From: Bacteroidota bacterium
GTDB lineage: Bacteria; Bacteroidota; Bacteroidia; 2-12-FULL-35-15
Reading direction: 5' to 3'
DNA length: 41,972 nucleotides
NCBI GenBank assembly: GCA_947380175.1
Contig: CANCPZ010000004.1
Coordinates: forward strand, 1 to 41,972
A program made the translations under genes and the position numbers. Every line of letters starts with the position of its first letter. The first letter of the stretch is position 1. The notes beneath the pieces were generated by a model. The model ran no database searches. It was not told where the DNA came from and saw only the letters and a program-made list of their open reading frames with translations. Of this stretch, positions 8,095 through 34,399 are shown in pieces.

Positions 8095-8109
8095 ATTTAG
8101 ATCTATTTT

Positions 8110-8152
8110 AAAGCTGTTCATATAACTATATTGTTTATTGAGCAGCTTTTTT
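8110..8152 (+). terminator. Intrinsic terminator after the small T9SS protein
   Basis: An 11-bp stem, AAAGCTGTTCA paired with TGAGCAGCTTT (one G-U pair), encloses an 18-base loop and runs into a T tract. It ends 16 bases after the stop of the T9SS gene. It also shows that the TTG at 8131, used by the ORF track for the next gene, lies within the loop of a terminator. Confidence 0.8.
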
Positions 8153-13674: not shown

Positions 13675-16600
13675 TTATTTACTAATTATCAATCGTTGAA
13701 TATTATTCTTGCCATTTATTGTGAGCGAAATAATGTAAATACCATTACTTAATTTAATGTTTTTTTCATTTTCAAAAGTATATTTATAACTCCCCGATAG
13801 TTGTTTTATGTTTATAATATTTGCAACTTTTATACCAAGCACATTGTAAATATCGAGCAATACAAGGGCGTCGTTACCAAGGGTATAATCAATAGTTATA
13901 TGTCCTGTTGAAGGGTTTGGATATACACTGAATTTATTTTCGATTGATGACGAAGGGTTATTGTTAACAGCGGTTGTTGAAGTATTAATAATAAAAATAC
14001 TTGTAGAATCGGCTGTATAGTTTAATGCATTGTAAGTATTACTAGTACCATCAACATGAACTGAATAGGACGAATCGGTACTAAGTCCTGTAATATCTAC
14101 ATACAAAGTATAACTTCCTGTATCCACATTTGCAAAACTGTATTGACCATTCATATCTGTAATTGTACAACCAGCTATTTGTGCTCCCGGATTTTTTCCC
14201 AACTTAACATCTACTCCCGGTATTGGATCCCCTTCTTGACGACCAAATCCAACTCCTTGTAAAATGGTACCACTCAATGTTCCTGGTCCTGCATTTGAAA
14301 CGGCCAATTGTTCTACCATTAAAATATTAGCTGTATCATTTATATTACATCCATGTATTTGAACCAAGGCAGAATCCCACATAAATTGATTGCCATAATA
14401 CGTTGGAATTAACGTTGGATAGGTTGATGAATTAGGAAATACTTTTATCAAATAATCGCCGTGATTAATTGCAGTAAAATTATAATATCCAATTGCATTT
14501 AGCGGGGCTATTTGAATGGTATCAAAATGAGTATTAAAAAGTTGGTATTTATATAGAATAGCGCTTCCATCAATAACATCACCTCCTGAATAACTAACAT
14601 GACCTGATAAATTTGTACTTGGTATTACGTCAACTAAGATTGATTTTGTGGTTGTACAAAAATCGGCATCGGTTACTGTTTGTGTATAACTGGTAGTATA
14701 TGCTGGTGAAACATTTATAGATGCCAAGGAGCTGGAGTTGTCCCACAATAATGTATAAGGGGGTGTACCTCCTGAAACTATTGAAAAAATGGATGTTGTA
14801 TCTCCCGAGCAAATAGGTGAGTTAGTTGCAAATAAGCTATCTTGTATCATGGAGGGAGTGGTAAGTACTGAAGAGTGGTAGTTTGTACACCCGTTTTTAT
14901 CAGTTACTACTATGGTATAAGTACCTGCAGGAAGATTTGAAATTGAATTAGTTGTATCGGACAAAGGAGACCAACTATAATGAAATGGAGCAGATCCACT
15001 AGCTGCGTAGCTTGTTGAGCCATTGCTTAAACCATAACAAGAAGGATTATTTAATGTTAAAACCGAAAGATAGGGTACACTATCAACCGATACTTGTAAA
15101 CTATCAGTTGCTATACAACCAAAAGGCGTAGAAACAGATAACAAAATATTGTAACTACCCAAAGCGAAAATATGTATTGGGTTTTGTAAAACGCTTGTCG
15201 ACTCATCACCAAAATTCCATATTCTAGTTGTTATGGAATCTCCTGTGATTGAAGATAAATCACTAAAATTAGTTTGATTACCTAAACACGTTGTTTGATT
15301 AGGGCCAGCATTGGCAATTGGTTGTGAATGAACCTCCACAGTTCCACTTCCTAATGCATTACATCCATTTAATGAATATGCACACGTGTACGTATATGTT
15401 CCAGGAGAGATTGGTGAAACCCTAATGGTGTCTGTTGTTTCTGGCATAGGTGTCCAATAATATGAACCACCTGTAACAGAAGGTGTTGCTGTTAATGTTG
15501 TTGAGGTACCAGCGCAAATGCTCTGGTTGTTAATCGAAATAGTTGGCAATTGGTTTACAGTAACTGTAGCAATAGCACTATCAGCACATGACCCAAACGT
15601 ACCAATTACTTTATAATTATTAATACCCAAAGGAGGATTAAAAGTAACACTGTCGCCTGCTGTAGAATTGATTCCTGGTGGCCATAAATATGACGCTGCC
15701 CCACTTGCTATCAGTGTTGCCGACTGCCCTGCGCAGATTGTTAACGAATTAACAGAAACTACCGGCAATGGGTTTATTGTTAACATTAACGAATCGAATA
15801 TTGAGGAACAAATTCCATTGGCTTTAAGGACCAATATTACTGAACCTGATGCGATATCTGATACAGAAGGTGTATATATCGTATTGACCAATGTTGGAGA
15901 AGAAAATGAACCTGTGCCATTTGTTGTCCAAACAGAAGAAATTGCACCTTCTATAAAACCAGCTAAAGAGGCCAATTGTCCAGCACAAATTGAAAGGTCT
16001 GATCCGGCATTGGCTGTAGGAGGGGCTGGTGGAGGATTAATAATTACACTTGTTGATGTTGATGAAACACACCCGTCAGCATTCGCAACAGTAAAACTAT
16101 GCTCTCCAGGAGTTAATCCCCAAAAAGTAGCTGATAAAGAGGTATCCGAAATACTTGTACTGCTAGCGACTTCGCTAATTGTCCATGTGCCAAACCTAGG
16201 CAAATTTGTGAAATATACACTTCCTACCACATTAGAGCAGTTTGGCTGAATAACCGAAGCTATTTGAGGGGAATTTGGAAGAGGTTTTACAGTAAATGCG
16301 CCAGATACAGTAGACGATTTAATTCCACAAGCACCTGTTACAACACAGTAATAATAATTCATACCAACAGTATCCGAACGAGGAGTATACGTTGCAGTTG
16401 TAGCACCACTGATAATCGCTCCACCTATACTGCTTTGCGTTAAATTTTTATACCATTGGTAGGTAAATGGTCCTGTACCACTCGCAGTTACAGAAATTGG
16501 GTTAAAATAAGAAGTGTTTGCACACACTGTTTGACTCGCTGTTGATTGATTAACAATGTTTGTTTGTGGATTAATAGAAATTGTGACTGTTGAACTCGCG

Positions 16601-16899
16601 GTATTACTTTGCACATCGGTAACTACAAGAGTATAGGTTGTTAAGGTCGCTGGCGCTGCAAGTGGGTTTGAAACATAAGATGAACCTAAACCAATAGTGG
16701 GTGACCAAACGTAAGTATATGGAGGAATTCCACCTGTAGCGACAGGGTTTCCAGATACACCTATGATTGTACTGTCTCCCAAACAAATTGATCTGTTTGG
16801 TCCCGCATTAGCTGTTAACTGAGCAAATAAATTAGTTGTTTGTGTTAAGATTAAGCAGTAAATAATTTTAATGCAAAACGAAGTGATTAGCTTTTTCAT
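13675..16899 (-). CDS. Large secreted multidomain (PKD/SprB/Ig-like) protein with T9SS type A sorting domain
   Basis: A 1074-residue surface or secreted protein. The signal peptide (about 1-27) ends in LFAQ. The body is a string of beta-sandwich modules: PKD-like (NAGPNRSICLGDSTIIG, 30-110), Ig-like (TVCANTS...YQWYKN, 118-205), several ICAG-type repeats (about 295-525), a canonical PKD domain (WNFGDESTSVLQNPIHIF, about 530-610), and a SprB-type repeat (NPSCYGLSNGSTSY...YTIVVTDKNGC, about 613-665). A carboxypeptidase-regulatory/SdrD-B-like domain follows (GVDVKLG...TDMNGQYSFANVDTGSYTLY, about 895-965). The last 85 residues (FSVYPNPSTGHITIDY...GIYIISLTINGKN) are a type A sorting signal. Such proteins act in adhesion, gliding or matrix binding. 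It has its own terminator and, upstream, a dyad shared with the suf promoter. Confidence 0.9.
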   Translation of the reverse strand: MKKLITSFCIKIIYCLILTQTTNLFAQLTANAGPNRSICLGDSTIIGVSGNPVATGGIPPYTYVWSPTIGLGSSYVSNPLAAPATLTTYTLVVTDVQSNTASSTVTISINPQTNIVNQSTASQTVCANTSYFNPISVTASGTGPFTYQWYKNLTQSSIGGAIISGATTATYTPRSDTVGMNYYYCVVTGACGIKSSTVSGAFTVKPLPNSPQIASVIQPNCSNVVGSVYFTNLPRFGTWTISEVASSTSISDTSLSATFWGLTPGEHSFTVANADGCVSSTSTSVIINPPPAPPTANAGSDLSICAGQLASLAGFIEGAISSVWTTNGTGSFSSPTLVNTIYTPSVSDIASGSVILVLKANGICSSIFDSLMLTINPLPVVSVNSLTICAGQSATLIASGAASYLWPPGINSTAGDSVTFNPPLGINNYKVIGTFGSCADSAIATVTVNQLPTISINNQSICAGTSTTLTATPSVTGGSYYWTPMPETTDTIRVSPISPGTYTYTCAYSLNGCNALGSGTVEVHSQPIANAGPNQTTCLGNQTNFSDLSSITGDSITTRIWNFGDESTSVLQNPIHIFALGSYNILLSVSTPFGCIATDSLQVSVDSVPYLSVLTLNNPSCYGLSNGSTSYAASGSAPFHYSWSPLSDTTNSISNLPAGTYTIVVTDKNGCTNYHSSVLTTPSMIQDSLFATNSPICSGDTTSIFSIVSGGTPPYTLLWDNSSSLASINVSPAYTTSYTQTVTDADFCTTTKSILVDVIPSTNLSGHVSYSGGDVIDGSAILYKYQLFNTHFDTIQIAPLNAIGYYNFTAINHGDYLIKVFPNSSTYPTLIPTYYGNQFMWDSALVQIHGCNINDTANILMVEQLAVSNAGPGTLSGTILQGVGFGRQEGDPIPGVDVKLGKNPGAQIAGCTITDMNGQYSFANVDTGSYTLYVDITGLSTDSSYSVHVDGTSNTYNALNYTADSTSIFIINTSTTAVNNNPSSSIENKFSVYPNPSTGHITIDYTLGNDALVLLDIYNVLGIKVANIINIKQLSGSYKYTFENEKNIKLSNGIYIISLTINGKNNIQRLIISK

Positions 16900-17002: not shown

Positions 17003-17010
17003 CAAATATA
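17003..17010 (-). promoter_or_regulatory. Putative -7 element of the large T9SS protein gene
   Basis: On the minus strand this reads TATATTTG, a full TAnnTTTG match. Transcription would start near 16996, leaving a leader of roughly 95 bases before the ATG at 16899. The expected -33 position overlaps the 17027-17045 dyad, and no TTTG is visible there, which might fit a promoter needing an activator. Confidence 0.42.
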
Positions 17011-17026
17011 ATCGACAAAATAAAAC

Positions 17027-17045
17027 ATTTAGACGTTGTCTAAAT
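17027..17045. promoter_or_regulatory. 19-bp dyad operator candidate (same architecture as the suf operator)
   Basis: The sequence ATTTAGACGTTGTCTAAAT has perfect 8-bp arms separated by 3 bases. Its centre would be near -40 relative to the predicted start of the large T9SS gene. The suf promoter carries ATTTAGATTGAATCTAAAT, with the same arm length, the same 3-base spacing and arms differing by one base. The shared design is seen directly; that one regulator binds both is inference. Confidence 0.55.
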
Positions 17046-17054
17046 AATAATAAC

Positions 17055-17116
17055 ATTTGTAAAAATGAAAGAGTCCATAAACTAATTAGTTTATGGACTC
17101 TTTCATTTTTACAAAT
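17055..17116. terminator. Perfect 62-bp palindrome, probable terminator of typA
   Basis: Bases 17055-17085 are the exact reverse complement of 17086-17116, so a 31-bp arm with no loop is formed. The core GAGTCCATAAAC is the most GC-rich part and is flanked by TTTCATTTTT/AAAAATGAAA, giving a T-rich side in both directions. It lies 38 bases past the typA stop, where a terminator is expected. A perfect arm of 31 bp is longer than a terminator requires. The ORF-track protein of 94 residues across it is a shadow. Confidence 0.75.
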
Positions 17117-29496: not shown

Positions 29497-30324
29497 ATGA
29501 AACTAAAAGATTTGAAAACCATTTCAAATGGTTTAACTCAAACCGAAAAAATGCCGGTATTATTTTTAGGCCACGGCAGCCCAATGAATGCAATTGAAGA
29601 AAATGAATTTGTTATAGGTTTTAAGAATGTTGGAAAAGATATTCCAAAACCAAATGCAATCTTAATTGTTTCTGCTCATTGGGAAACAAAAGGAACCTTT
29701 GTAACAGCTATGGATAAACCTCGAACCATTCACGATTTTCGAGGCTTTCCAAAAGCTTTATTTGATATAGAATATCCTGCACCTGGTTGTCCCGAATTAG
29801 CATTTGAAACAAAAAAAATTATTACAAAAACCCAGATTGGATTAGATGAACAATGGGGTTTGGATCATGGCGCATGGACCGTTATTAAACACATCTACCC
29901 AAACGCTGATGTACCAATAATACAAATGAGTATTGATTATACACAAGGTGGACAGTACCATTACGAATTAGCAAAAGAACTAGCATCGCTTCGTAACAAA
30001 GGGGTTTTAATTGTTGGGAGCGGAAATATGGTTCATAATTTAGCAATGATTGCATGGGATAAATTAGATGCAGATAACTATGGATATGACTGGGCAATTG
30101 AAGCGATTGAAAAAATGAAAGAGTATATTTTGTCCGACAACTTCCAGCCATTAATTAATTTTAAAAACCAAGGAAAAATTTTCGATTTAGCCATTCCAAG
30201 CCAAGAGCATTATTTACCATTAATTTATAGTTTGGCTTTAAAAGAGCGCTACGAAAAAATTACACTCTTTAACGACAAGGCTATTGGAGGTTCATTAACT
30301 ATGACATCATTAAAAATTAGTTAA
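29497..30324 (+). CDS. ygiD: LigB/YgiD-type extradiol ring-cleavage dioxygenase (4,5-DOPA dioxygenase-like)
   Basis: A 275-residue cytoplasmic metalloenzyme of the class III extradiol dioxygenase family. Likely metal and active-site histidines are His26 (FLGHGSP), His61 (VSAHWE), His79 (HDFRGFP), His124 (GLDHGAW), and one near the C-terminus (PSQEHYLPL). E. coli YgiD opens the ring of 4,5-DOPA; homologues act on varied catechols, and the physiological substrate in this organism is unknown. Length and motif order fit YgiD closely. It follows the YceI gene by 79 bases and converges on sufD. Confidence 0.9.
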   Translation: MKLKDLKTISNGLTQTEKMPVLFLGHGSPMNAIEENEFVIGFKNVGKDIPKPNAILIVSAHWETKGTFVTAMDKPRTIHDFRGFPKALFDIEYPAPGCPELAFETKKIITKTQIGLDEQWGLDHGAWTVIKHIYPNADVPIIQMSIDYTQGGQYHYELAKELASLRNKGVLIVGSGNMVHNLAMIAWDKLDADNYGYDWAIEAIEKMKEYILSDNFQPLINFKNQGKIFDLAIPSQEHYLPLIYSLALKERYEKITLFNDKAIGGSLTMTSLKIS

Positions 30325-30336
30325 CAATTTTTAATG

Positions 30337-30377
30337 CTTTTTTTTAAAAAAAGGAAATAAAAATGTACCTTTTTATT
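30337..30377. terminator. AT-rich bidirectional terminator candidate between ygiD and sufD
   Basis: Two A/T-only dyads lie side by side: C-T8-A7-G at 30337-30353 and AATAAAAA-TGTACC-TTTTTATT at 30356-30377. The second overlaps the sufD stop. Neither has a GC-rich stem, but converging genes end here and no better terminator exists. Confidence 0.35.
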
Positions 30378-31668
30378 CGAATCTTTTCGAAATTTTTTCT
30401 TCAACAAAATCACGTAACTCAACAATCTTAATCGTATCAACTACCTCGGAAGCAAAGGCGTGCATCAACATTTTTTTTGCACTGATTTCACTTATGCCAC
30501 GTGCTCGTAAATAAAACACCTTTTCTTCATCTAGCTTACCTGTTGAGGTGCCATGCGAGCACTTTACATCGTCGGCATAAATTTCTAATTGTGGTTTTGT
30601 ATTGATTGTTCCATCATCACTTAACAAAATATTTTTGTTTGATTGAAATGCATTTGTTTTTTGAGCATCTTTCCGAACATATATTTTTCCATTGAAAGTT
30701 GCTGATGATTTATCTTCAATGATTCCCTTGTAAAGTTCATTGCTATTGCAGTTTGGTTTACGATGATCAACCAATGTGTGATTATCGACCACTTGATTTT
30801 CGTTCGTCAAATACAACCCATTCAAATTCGATTCAATGTGCTCTCCAGCTAAAACGATTGCTAAATTATTGCGAACAAATGAGCCACTTAATGTGAATGT
30901 TTCGGTAGTGAAAACACTTTTTGTATTTTGATTTACATGTGTTGTATTTAACAAAAAACCAAATTCTTTTTCATCTTGTATTTTATAATGATCTACAATC
31001 GAGTTTTCGCCAATAACAATTTCTGTCAATGCATTGTTAAATGTTTTGGCTTTAGAATCAATGTTTCTGAACGATTCAATAATTGTAACATTTGCATTTC
31101 CATCAACTACGATTAAATTACGCGGATTAATAATTGTGTTTTCAGAAACAGAGGAAATATGAATGATGTGAATAGGTATTTCAATAATTGCACCTTTTGC
31201 AATATGTATAAAAACACCACCATTTGTTAATGCAGTATTTAAAGCTACAAATGGGTCTGCATCAACATCTGAATATTTTGAAAAATGTGTTTGAAATATT
31301 TCATTACTTGAGGCCACAGTAATATCAATAATTTGCAACCCCTTTGGTAAGTTAGTTAATTCAGAATTCGATAAATTTAAAACACCATTTTCTATTGCAA
31401 TAACAATAGCATTTTTTAAAATATGAGTATCTACAAGTTGTTCGCGACTAATTTTATGTTGACTTGAAAAAGCAAATTCGCCTTTCAAAATCAACCCCAA
31501 ATTAACATACTTATATTCTTCACTCTTGCGACTTGGAATACCTTGTTTGGCAAAGCTTTCCATCGCTCGACTGCGCAAAGTTAAATCACCAAAAAATGAA
31601 TTTTTTGAATAGTCGAATTCTGCAATCAATTTATCTTTTATTGTATTTTGTTTTGTAACTGTTTCCAT
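30373..31668 (-). CDS. sufD: Fe-S cluster assembly protein SufD
   Basis: Scaffold partner of SufB and SufC in the SufBC2D complex that builds Fe-S clusters. The 431-residue protein has the family layout: a helical N-terminus (SFAKQGIPSRKSEEYKYVNL), a long right-handed beta-helix core and a helical C-terminus with CSHGTSTGKLDEEKVFYLRARGISE, where the His of CSHG matches the functional SufD His. It is last of four genes in the operon and starts 13 bases after sufC. No sufS or sufE follows, although those often do in Bacteroidota. Confidence 0.95.
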   Translation of the reverse strand: METVTKQNTIKDKLIAEFDYSKNSFFGDLTLRSRAMESFAKQGIPSRKSEEYKYVNLGLILKGEFAFSSQHKISREQLVDTHILKNAIVIAIENGVLNLSNSELTNLPKGLQIIDITVASSNEIFQTHFSKYSDVDADPFVALNTALTNGGVFIHIAKGAIIEIPIHIIHISSVSENTIINPRNLIVVDGNANVTIIESFRNIDSKAKTFNNALTEIVIGENSIVDHYKIQDEKEFGFLLNTTHVNQNTKSVFTTETFTLSGSFVRNNLAIVLAGEHIESNLNGLYLTNENQVVDNHTLVDHRKPNCNSNELYKGIIEDKSSATFNGKIYVRKDAQKTNAFQSNKNILLSDDGTINTKPQLEIYADDVKCSHGTSTGKLDEEKVFYLRARGISEISAKKMLMHAFASEVVDTIKIVELRDFVEEKISKRFE

Positions 31669-31681
31669 CCAATGAATAAAT

Positions 31682-32437
31682 TTATGCTCCTATTTCTTCT
31701 TTAATAAAATCATACCCTTTTTCTTCAAGCTCTAAAGCCAATTCTTTAGAACCAGTTTTAACAATTTTTCCATTAAATAAAACATGAACCACATCAGGTA
31801 CAATATAGTCTAACAAACGTTGGTAATGAGTAATAACAATGGTTGCATTGTCTTTTGATTTTAATTTGTTTACTCCGCCAGCAACAATTCGAAGTGCATC
31901 AATATCAAGCCCGCTGTCAGTTTCATCTAAAATAGATAAACAAGGATCAAGCATTGCCATTTGAAAAATCTCATTGCGTTTTTTTTCACCACCACTGAAA
32001 CCTTCATTCACTGAACGGTTTGCAAGCTTTCCATCGAGTTCAACTAATTTTTGTTTTTCTTTTAAACGAGCTAAAAAATCTTTTGCTTCCATAGGTTCTA
32101 AACCTTTGTATGCCCTAATTTCATTGATCGCCGTTTTTAAAAAATTAACATTGCTAACTCCGGGAATTTCTATCGGGTATTGAAACGCGAGAAATAAACC
32201 TTCTCTTGCTCTGTCTTCTGGAGAAAGTTCTAATAAATTTTTTCCATTAAATATTACGGAACCTTCGGTAACTTCGTAATCTTCACGACCAGCAAGCACA
32301 GAAGATAAAGTGCTTTTACCTGAACCGTTCGGTCCCATAATCGCATGAACTTCTCCTGCTTTTATTTCTAAATTAATTCCCTTTAGAATTTCTTTTCCCC
32401 CTATAGAGGCATGTAAATTTTTTATTGATAACATCAT
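31682..32437 (-). CDS. sufC: Fe-S cluster assembly ATPase SufC
   Basis: The ABC-type ATPase of the SufBCD complex. Walker A is GPNGSGKST (about 35-43), the signature is FSGGEKKRNEI, Walker B with the unusual SufC wording is LSILDETDSGLDIDA, and the switch His is in VITHYQR. At 251 residues the length is standard. The start is ATG ATG at 32437/32434; either is possible. It lies 74 bases after sufB and 13 bases before sufD. Confidence 0.97.
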   Translation of the reverse strand: MMLSIKNLHASIGGKEILKGINLEIKAGEVHAIMGPNGSGKSTLSSVLAGREDYEVTEGSVIFNGKNLLELSPEDRAREGLFLAFQYPIEIPGVSNVNFLKTAINEIRAYKGLEPMEAKDFLARLKEKQKLVELDGKLANRSVNEGFSGGEKKRNEIFQMAMLDPCLSILDETDSGLDIDALRIVAGGVNKLKSKDNATIVITHYQRLLDYIVPDVVHVLFNGKIVKTGSKELALELEEKGYDFIKEEIGA

Positions 32438-32511: not shown

Positions 32512-33963
32512 TTATCCTACAGACCCTTCTAAGCTCACCGACAATAATTTCTGTGCTTCCACAGCAAACTCCATAGGTAATTTATTTAATACTTCTTTAC
32601 AATAACCATTCACAATTAAACCAATTGCTTTTTCATTGTCAATTCCTCTTTGTTTACAATAAAATAATTGATCTTCACCAATTTTTGAAGTCGTTGCTTC
32701 GTGCTCTACTATAGCTGACTTATCTTTTATTTCGATATAAGGAAATGTGTGTGCACCACATTTATCACCCATCAATAAACTATCACATTGCGAAAAATTA
32801 CGGGCGTTACTAGCACCCTTTGCAATACGAACCAAACCTCTATAACTATTGTTACTAAAACCAGCAGAAATTCCTTTTGATATAATAGTGCTTCTAGTGT
32901 TTTTTCCTAGATGTATCATTTTTGTGCCTGTATCGGCTTGCTGATGGTTATTTGTAAGGGCAACTGAGTAAAACTCTCCGATGGAGTTGTCGCCTTTTAA
33001 AATTACTGAAGGATATTTCCAGGTAACTGCTGATCCAGTTTCTACCTGCGTCCAAGAAATTTTTGAATTGTCTTCTAAACAAACACCTCGCTTTGTAACA
33101 AAATTAAAAATTCCACCTTTCCCATTTTTATCACCAGGGTACCAATTTTGAACGGTACTGTATTTAACTTCTGCATTTTTGTGAGTAACAATTTCTACAA
33201 CAGCAGCATGTAATTGATTTTCATCACGCATAGGAGCGGTGCAACCTTCAAGATAACTCACATAAGCATCTTCATCGGCAACAATTAAGGTACGTTCAAA
33301 CTGACCGGTTCCCGAGGCGTTGATTCGGAAATAGGTAGAAAGCTCCATTGGACAACGAACTCCTTTTGGAATGTAACAAAACGATCCATCTGTAAATACT
33401 GCTGAATTGAGAGCAGCATAAAAATTATCGGTATATGGAACCACCGAACCCATATATTTTTTAACCAATTCGGGGTGTTCCTGAACAGCTTCGCCAAATG
33501 AACAAAAAATAATACCCTTCTCAGATAATGTTTCTTTGAAAGTTGTTTTTACTGAAACGCTATCCATTACAATATCCACAGCAATTCTGCTTTCAACACC
33601 ACTTAAACGTTTTTGCTCTTCGATACTAATACCAAGTTTTTCGAAGGTTTTTAATAATTCAGGATCAACTTCATCTAAACTATTTAATTGCACTTTAGGT
33701 TTTGGAGCCGAATAGTAAATGATGTCTTGAAAATTTGGCTTGATGTATGAAACGTGAGCCCAATTAGGCTCCTCCAGTGTTAACCAATATTTAAAAGCTT
33801 TTAAGCGATATTCCAACATCCATTGTGGCTCATTTTTTTTCTTAGAAATAAAACGAATAATGTCTTCATTTAAGCCTTTTGGAGCATTATCCGCTTCAAT
33901 ATCTGTTACAAAACCGTACTTATATTCCGAACTAATTTGTTCTGCTAAAATTTCGTTTGCCAT
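32512..33963 (-). CDS. sufB: Fe-S cluster assembly protein SufB
   Basis: The main scaffold on which the nascent Fe-S cluster is assembled. The 483-residue protein carries the canonical blocks: [15 protein letters not shown] near the start, [52 protein letters not shown], and [19 protein letters not shown] followed by [21 protein letters not shown] near the end. The Cys and Glu residues used in SufB-SufD cluster formation are in the last two blocks. It begins 12 bases after sufA. Confidence 0.97.
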
Positions 33964-33975
33964 TTCTGATTTTTA

Positions 33976-34302
33976 TTAAACCCCAAAACTTTCACCACAA
34001 CCACAAGTACGAGCAGCGTTTGGATTATTAAACACAAACCCTTTACCATTAAGACCTCCGGTATAATCAAGCTCTGTACCTATTAAATACAAAAAACTTT
34101 TTTTATCCACGGCAATCTTAATTCCTTTGTCTTCAAAAACCTGATCACCTTCCAAAATTTGGTTATCAAATTCTAATTTGTAGGAAAGCCCTGAACACCC
34201 ACCACCATCAACACCTACACGAATAAATGTGCCTTCGGGACGATTTTCGTTTTTTATTAAATTTAACGCGTGTTGTTTTGCATTTTCGGAAACTGTTATC
34301 AT
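33976..34302 (-). CDS. sufA: A-type Fe-S carrier (SufA/IscA/ErpA family)
   Basis: A 108-residue carrier that receives clusters from SufBCD and passes them to target enzymes such as IspG. The three conserved ligands are Cys36 (GGCSG), Cys100 and Cys102 (CGCGESFGV). First gene of sufA-sufB-sufC-sufD, so its upstream region controls the operon. The gene name follows context; sequence alone cannot separate SufA from ErpA. The start ATG at 34302 follows a leader of about 60 bases containing the 19-bp operator candidate. Confidence 0.93.
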   Translation of the reverse strand: MITVSENAKQHALNLIKNENRPEGTFIRVGVDGGGCSGLSYKLEFDNQILEGDQVFEDKGIKIAVDKKSFLYLIGTELDYTGGLNGKGFVFNNPNAARTCGCGESFGV

Positions 34303-34343: not shown

Positions 34344-34362
34344 ATTTAGATTGAATCTAAAT
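34344..34362. promoter_or_regulatory. 19-bp palindromic operator candidate of the suf operon
   Basis: ATTTAGATTGAATCTAAAT is a perfect dyad with 8-bp arms, 3-base spacing and a central G at 34353. It begins where transcription is predicted to start (about 34362) and covers the first 19 bases of the leader, a classic repressor position. The same layout recurs at 17027-17045. The arms loosely recall metal-responsive DtxR/MntR-type sites; an Rrf2-type (IscR/SufR) regulator is also possible. The regulator is not in the window. Confidence 0.6.
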
Positions 34363-34368
34363 CGAATA

Positions 34369-34399
34369 CAAACTTACCTAAAGTTAGCTGTTTTTGCAA
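34369..34399 (-). promoter_or_regulatory. Promoter of the suf operon
   Basis: On the minus strand TTG (34399-34397) is followed after 20 bases by TAAGTTTG (34376-34369), a full TAnnTTTG -7 element. Both boxes and spacing fit Bacteroidota promoters, making this one of the best in the window. The 34344-34362 operator lies immediately downstream. Confidence 0.6.

Follow-up and report, generated by a model that had tools for sequence, protein, structure and literature searches.

A conserved Fur-box-type operator at the suf operon of a Bacteroidota bacterium and a weak look-alike upstream of a T9SS-sorted protein gene

Two 19-bp palindromes in a 41,972-nucleotide stretch of a Bacteroidota genome (hereafter the window, which denotes the whole stretch analysed) raise the question of whether Fe-S cluster assembly and a surface protein answer to one regulator. 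One palindrome lies upstream of a gene for a T9SS-sorted protein and the other at the suf promoter, and the original prediction read them as operators of a shared regulator that links Fe-S assembly to an adhesin. Upon re-reading, the coordinates and letters of both palindromes are exact, ATTTAGAC-GTT-GTCTAAAT at the first site and ATTTAGAT-TGA-ATCTAAAT at the second, and both are intergenic. The TAnnTTTG elements described beside them are also present: TATATTTG spans 17010-17003, and TAAGTTTG directly precedes the suf site on the minus strand.

17027..17045, minus strand: perfect 8-3-8 palindrome, a weak Fur-box look-alike upstream of the T9SS-sorted protein gene (letters, matrix and profile search)
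34344..34362, minus strand: Fur-box-type operator of hesB(sufA)-sufBCD, ATTTAGATTCAATCTAAAT on the minus strand (conservation, top genome match and published Fur box)

A genome scan recovered the exact pattern twice in the 2.63-Mb assembly, both copies being inside the window. When up to two mismatches were allowed, 20 sites were found in the genome versus 29 for the reversed control, and there is no enrichment; mismatch counting alone is therefore uninformative, and a position matrix and related genomes are needed. Perfect 8-3-8 palindromes number five in the window versus approximately 2.1 per simulated 42-kb window, and the other three are at 29516, 36253 and 40737. A palindrome of this form within one base of the suf arm occurs in 1.3% of the simulated windows, a figure that is weak evidence because the comparison was chosen after the fact. 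The two palindromes differ in standing: the suf site is a conserved operator, and the 17027 site is a weak look-alike.

The suf site opens an operon with the following elements.

34369..34376 (approximate), minus strand: TAAGTTTG, the Bacteroidota-type -7 element of the suf promoter, immediately ahead of the operator (sequence read directly)
33976..34302, minus strand: hesB/sufA, A-type Fe-S carrier of 108 aa, the first gene of the operon (Pfam Fe-S_biosyn)
32512..33963, minus strand: sufB (Pfam SUFBD_core)
31682..32437, minus strand: sufC (Pfam ABC_tran and place in the operon)
30373..31668, minus strand: sufD (Pfam SUFBD_core)

The hesB ATG follows the operator by 41 bp, and the predicted transcription start coincides with the operator or slightly precedes it. 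It matches all 14 outer bases of the Bacteroidota Fur box ATTTAGAATNATTCTAAAT, scores 24.6 with the matrix, and is the best match of the genome in the profile search (18 bits). To follow the site through the genus, suf loci were collected by a HesB protein search, which returned 30 including this genome; one was dropped because only 38 bp of upstream sequence was available. A dyad whose arms carry no more than two mismatches is present in all 29 genomes with usable upstream sequence, 21–43 bp ahead of the hesB start codon and just after a TAnnTTTG-like -7 box, which occupies the same place in most of these promoters. Shuffled hesB upstream sequences of the genus give a mean of more than four arm mismatches. 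The suf half of the original prediction, which had been made to depend on conservation ahead of sufA/hesB orthologues, passes that check.

Outside the genus, the suf loci retained from a SufB search, which cover several Bacteroidota orders by name and a few Ignavibacteria, were scored at a cut-off of 11 with a matrix trained on the genus sites and two Riemerella boxes alone, with the suf sites of these outside loci excluded from training. A site was found at 51 of the 79 loci, compared with 0.6% of shuffled upstream sequences and none inside sufB; the matrix gave no good site at the remaining 28. Judged by its conservation, the suf site is a real operator far above chance, and its regulator is most likely a metal-responsive one.

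The genes that carry the motif elsewhere in the genus point in the same direction. The strict form ATTTAGAN5TCTAAAT occurs at 48 sites in 36 genus genomes versus 6 for the reversed pattern. Of the 46 sites in the other genomes, 37 lie, as we read their gene neighbourhoods, beside genes of iron or haem type, namely suf (19), a ctaB/cyoE-like UbiA prenyltransferase gene (11), TonB receptor genes (3), hemA (2), a multihaem cytochrome c gene (1) and an outer-membrane porin-like gene (1). Where Pfam has a model, it confirmed representative neighbours; the prenyltransferase is assigned at the family level only, the porin-like gene has no Pfam hit, and one of the counted suf sites (L018) was assigned by synteny at a contig end. 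As far as these gene assignments go, the genes beside the motif form an iron and haem set.

Several further sites were observed. The dyad of the UbiA prenyltransferase gene, which occurs in 11 genus genomes, is mostly 116–142 bp upstream (L110, L117, L123, L174, L184 and others) and often asymmetric, ATTTAGAAATGGTCTAAAT. A dyad precedes the porin-like gene both in this genome and in G011 (L010, L178), and in this genome the porin-like gene is followed by a gene resembling a Rieske protein. A weaker candidate site lies 106 bp ahead of nuoA in this genome. Profile matches inside genes of this genome (C141, C131, C202 and C37) were taken as chance. Within the window, 8095-8113 (ATTTAGATCTATTTTAAAG; score 14.2) is another weak Fur-box look-alike, between the genes for a T9SS-sorted PCMD protein and a TonB-dependent receptor; it is directly behind the stop of the preceding gene and against a terminator-like repeat, and was left as chance or weak.

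The gene sufS, which is on a separate contig of this assembly (C50), has an upstream dyad of its own. The dyad, ATTTAGAATNATTCTTA(A/C)(C/T) or a close variant, is found in 30 of 30 genus genomes, mostly 13–17 bp ahead of the start codon, with distances of 35 and 43 bp in two cases, and overlaps the -7 element TAACTTTG in most of the 30. Both SUF units, hesB-sufBCD and sufS, carry a common site by sequence, each at its own promoter; on this evidence, the regulatory partner of hesB-sufBCD is sufS and not the adhesin gene.

Which protein reads the suf dyad? The letters of the motif are identical to the published Fur box of Riemerella anatipestifer, ATTTAGAATTATTCTAAAT, a 19-bp dyad predicted from Fur-regulated promoters (PMC5609570) that has EMSA support at several promoters (PMC5609570, PMC10986502) and whose mutation derepresses rhuH (PMC11967795). 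A later paper quotes a different, E. coli-like Fur box for R. anatipestifer (PMC7976709). The genome encodes one Fur (G000:C101), which has a FUR domain with E = 2.1e-27, Fur proteins as the nearest solved chains, and purA downstream; Flavobacterium psychrophilum likewise has a single Fur with purA downstream (PMC9331221).

The original prediction had suggested a loose likeness to DtxR/MntR-type sites; the arms contain TTAGA...TCTAA, which is loosely DtxR-like, and one DtxR-family protein is indeed encoded. However, the nearest model of this protein is MntR (below its cut-off), its gene adjoins an NRAMP-like transporter gene, and no such dyad is upstream of either gene, while the match of the motif to the Bacteroidota Fur box is exact. 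Its gene neighbourhood and the absent self-site led us to reject DtxR as the regulator, and we regard a reading of the suf dyad by such a protein as highly improbable. From these comparisons, the genome's single Fur, and not the DtxR protein, is the likely regulator of the suf site.

A different iron or Fe-S sensor, in particular an Rrf2/IscR-like protein, could read the suf dyad instead of Fur. The genome has two Rrf2 regulators (C98 and C44) with conserved cysteines, one of them directly downstream of a cysteine desulfurase gene. Against this possibility, the motif matches an EMSA-supported Fur box and also stands ahead of TonB receptors, hemA and the UbiA prenyltransferase gene, and neither Rrf2 gene has such a site, the best upstream matches having 3–4 arm mismatches. 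The regulator self-site that had been anticipated is thus missing from the dtxR-like gene and from both Rrf2 genes. The cysteine desulfurase upstream of the Rrf2 gene (L193, G000:C98) carries an N-terminal extension and is similar to the enzyme that family 2 encapsulins take up as cargo.

A further point in favour of such a sensor comes from R. anatipestifer, in which the suf genes are up in low iron also in the fur deletion mutant and are absent from the listed Fur targets (PMC5609570 Tables 3-5); suf may therefore also, or instead, answer to another factor. But the listed Fur targets retain an iron response in that mutant as well (PMC5609570), so the R. anatipestifer data are not clean. Taken together, we consider it improbable that an Rrf2/IscR-like protein replaces Fur at the suf dyad. 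At these suf sites, Fur may be joined by a second factor.

With Fur as the regulator, control would proceed as follows. As expected from established Fur biology, Fur loaded with Fe2+ would, under sufficient iron, occupy two dyads: the 19-bp one across the hesB-sufBCD start region and the one overlapping the -7 box ahead of sufS. Occupation of both dyads would block initiation, such that Fe-S assembly would be held down by repression. In low iron, Fur would leave and both suf units would be expressed together.

It remains to ask whether the 17027 palindrome belongs to this regulon. Its surroundings contain the following features.

13675..16899, minus strand: T9SS-sorted surface or secreted protein of 1074 aa (PKD, SdrD_B, SprB and Por_Secre_tail domains)
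17003..17010, minus strand: TATATTTG, a -7 box candidate for the T9SS protein gene (sequence read directly)
17055..17116, minus strand: 62-bp perfect inverted repeat with 31-bp arms and no spacer, separating typA from the T9SS gene and most likely terminating typA

The T9SS protein gene is downstream of typA. Its product was described as giant, which overstates a large protein of 1074 aa; its T9SS sorting tail is borne out, and its best relatives share approximately 40–51% identity over part of the protein. The palindrome begins approximately 17 bp upstream of TATATTTG, over the expected -33 region.

Both palindromes could be Fur boxes, the 17027 site being the weaker, in which case iron starvation would induce suf and the T9SS-secreted protein. 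The outer arms, ATTTAGA/TCTAAAT, are matched perfectly, and a plausible promoter has its expected -33 region where the palindrome lies. Its matrix score of 13.9 exceeds the cut-off of 11 used at the suf loci, 0.09 such scores are expected per window, and a one-sided C at position 8 is seen at UbiA-gene sites in relatives. The inner bases speak against this reading. A Fur box was taken to have T at 9, A at 11, and A or T at 8 and 12; the 17027 site has C, G, T and G at 8, 9, 11 and 12, and the training sites rarely or never show G at 9, T at 11 or C/G at both 8 and 12. The scores are 13.9 versus 24.6 for suf with the matrix and 6.0 versus 18 bits in the profile search, which ranks the site outside the 17 best matches of the genome. 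With the first matrix it scores 13.7, and none of the 73 training sites falls under 14.0. A 17027-type score is expected by chance approximately 5.5 times per genome, and 6.0 bits is at the noise level for the window.

Comparison with relatives points the same way. At the typA loci of 29 relatives, neither the T9SS gene nor the site is found, and the neighbour of typA differs in every relative in which it is readable; none of the relatives compared shares the locus. No comparable site lies upstream of approximately 30 related T9SS genes in relatives. The GAC-N3-GTC subtype of the 17027 site occurs nowhere else in 36 genus genomes, and as a singleton it was ruled out as the operator of another conserved regulator. 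We therefore consider it unlikely that both palindromes are Fur boxes. The more specific proposal, that iron starvation via Fur co-induces SUF and a lineage-specific T9SS surface protein through a weaker Fur box of recent origin at 17027, is likewise rather unlikely. On sequence grounds, a link between Fe-S assembly and the adhesin via a common operator is not supported.

The palindrome might instead act in RNA, as an additional weak terminator following the 62-bp hairpin of typA, or be due to chance. Read in the typA direction, it forms a second hairpin after the long hairpin, with a U-rich stretch behind it, the two fold together at -45.6 kcal/mol (z = -12.8), and the excess of perfect 8-3-8 palindromes in the window is compatible with a hairpin or chance origin. 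However, the stem is AT-rich with two G-C pairs, it was not called by the terminator scan, and the long typA hairpin alone would suffice for termination. A hairpin or chance origin is thus a possible but somewhat doubtful account. Relatives also have hairpins behind typA, with arms of up to 19 bp, none as long as 31 bp.

Most likely, the palindrome at 17027 represents an inverted repeat specific to this lineage, whose AT-rich arms give it the look of a Fur box, and we infer that it has no Fur role. As a whole, we think it probable that the suf site is the Fur box of a Fur-controlled hesB-sufBCD and sufS system, with the 17027 palindrome most likely outside the regulon.

The appealing connection of Fe-S assembly with an adhesin is set aside here as unsupported, and the result provides a well-supported, testable prediction, namely that a Fur-type operator controls hesB-sufBCD and sufS in the genus and many suf loci across Bacteroidota. 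It could also help settle the Riemerella data, in which suf responds to iron without Fur. The suf operator belongs to a known kind and is possibly undescribed so far at such breadth; within an incomplete coverage of the literature, we found no paper that reports a Fur-type operator of suf at this breadth.

DtxR, IdeR and MntR are iron or manganese regulators with AT-rich dyads. Unlike the suf site, their operators have another consensus, and the DtxR-family gene of this genome, beside an NRAMP-like gene, lacks the dyad upstream. In E. coli, Fur represses sufABCDSE, SUF is the Fe-S system of iron limitation, and apo-IscR and OxyR are additional activators of suf. The likeness to E. coli is a Fur operator at the suf promoter, here predicted from sequence; the Fur box sequence differs, and the suf genes form two separate units here, hesB-sufBCD and sufS, both of which have a box. 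Compared with R. anatipestifer, the difference is that suf is not among its listed Fur-box genes and is iron-responsive without Fur. Its Fur box is a 19-bp dyad, ATTTAGAATTATTCTAAAT, placed approximately 100 bp or less from the start codon of iron and haem receptor genes; the 17027 site deviates from it at the inner bases, whereas the suf and sufS sites described here fit.
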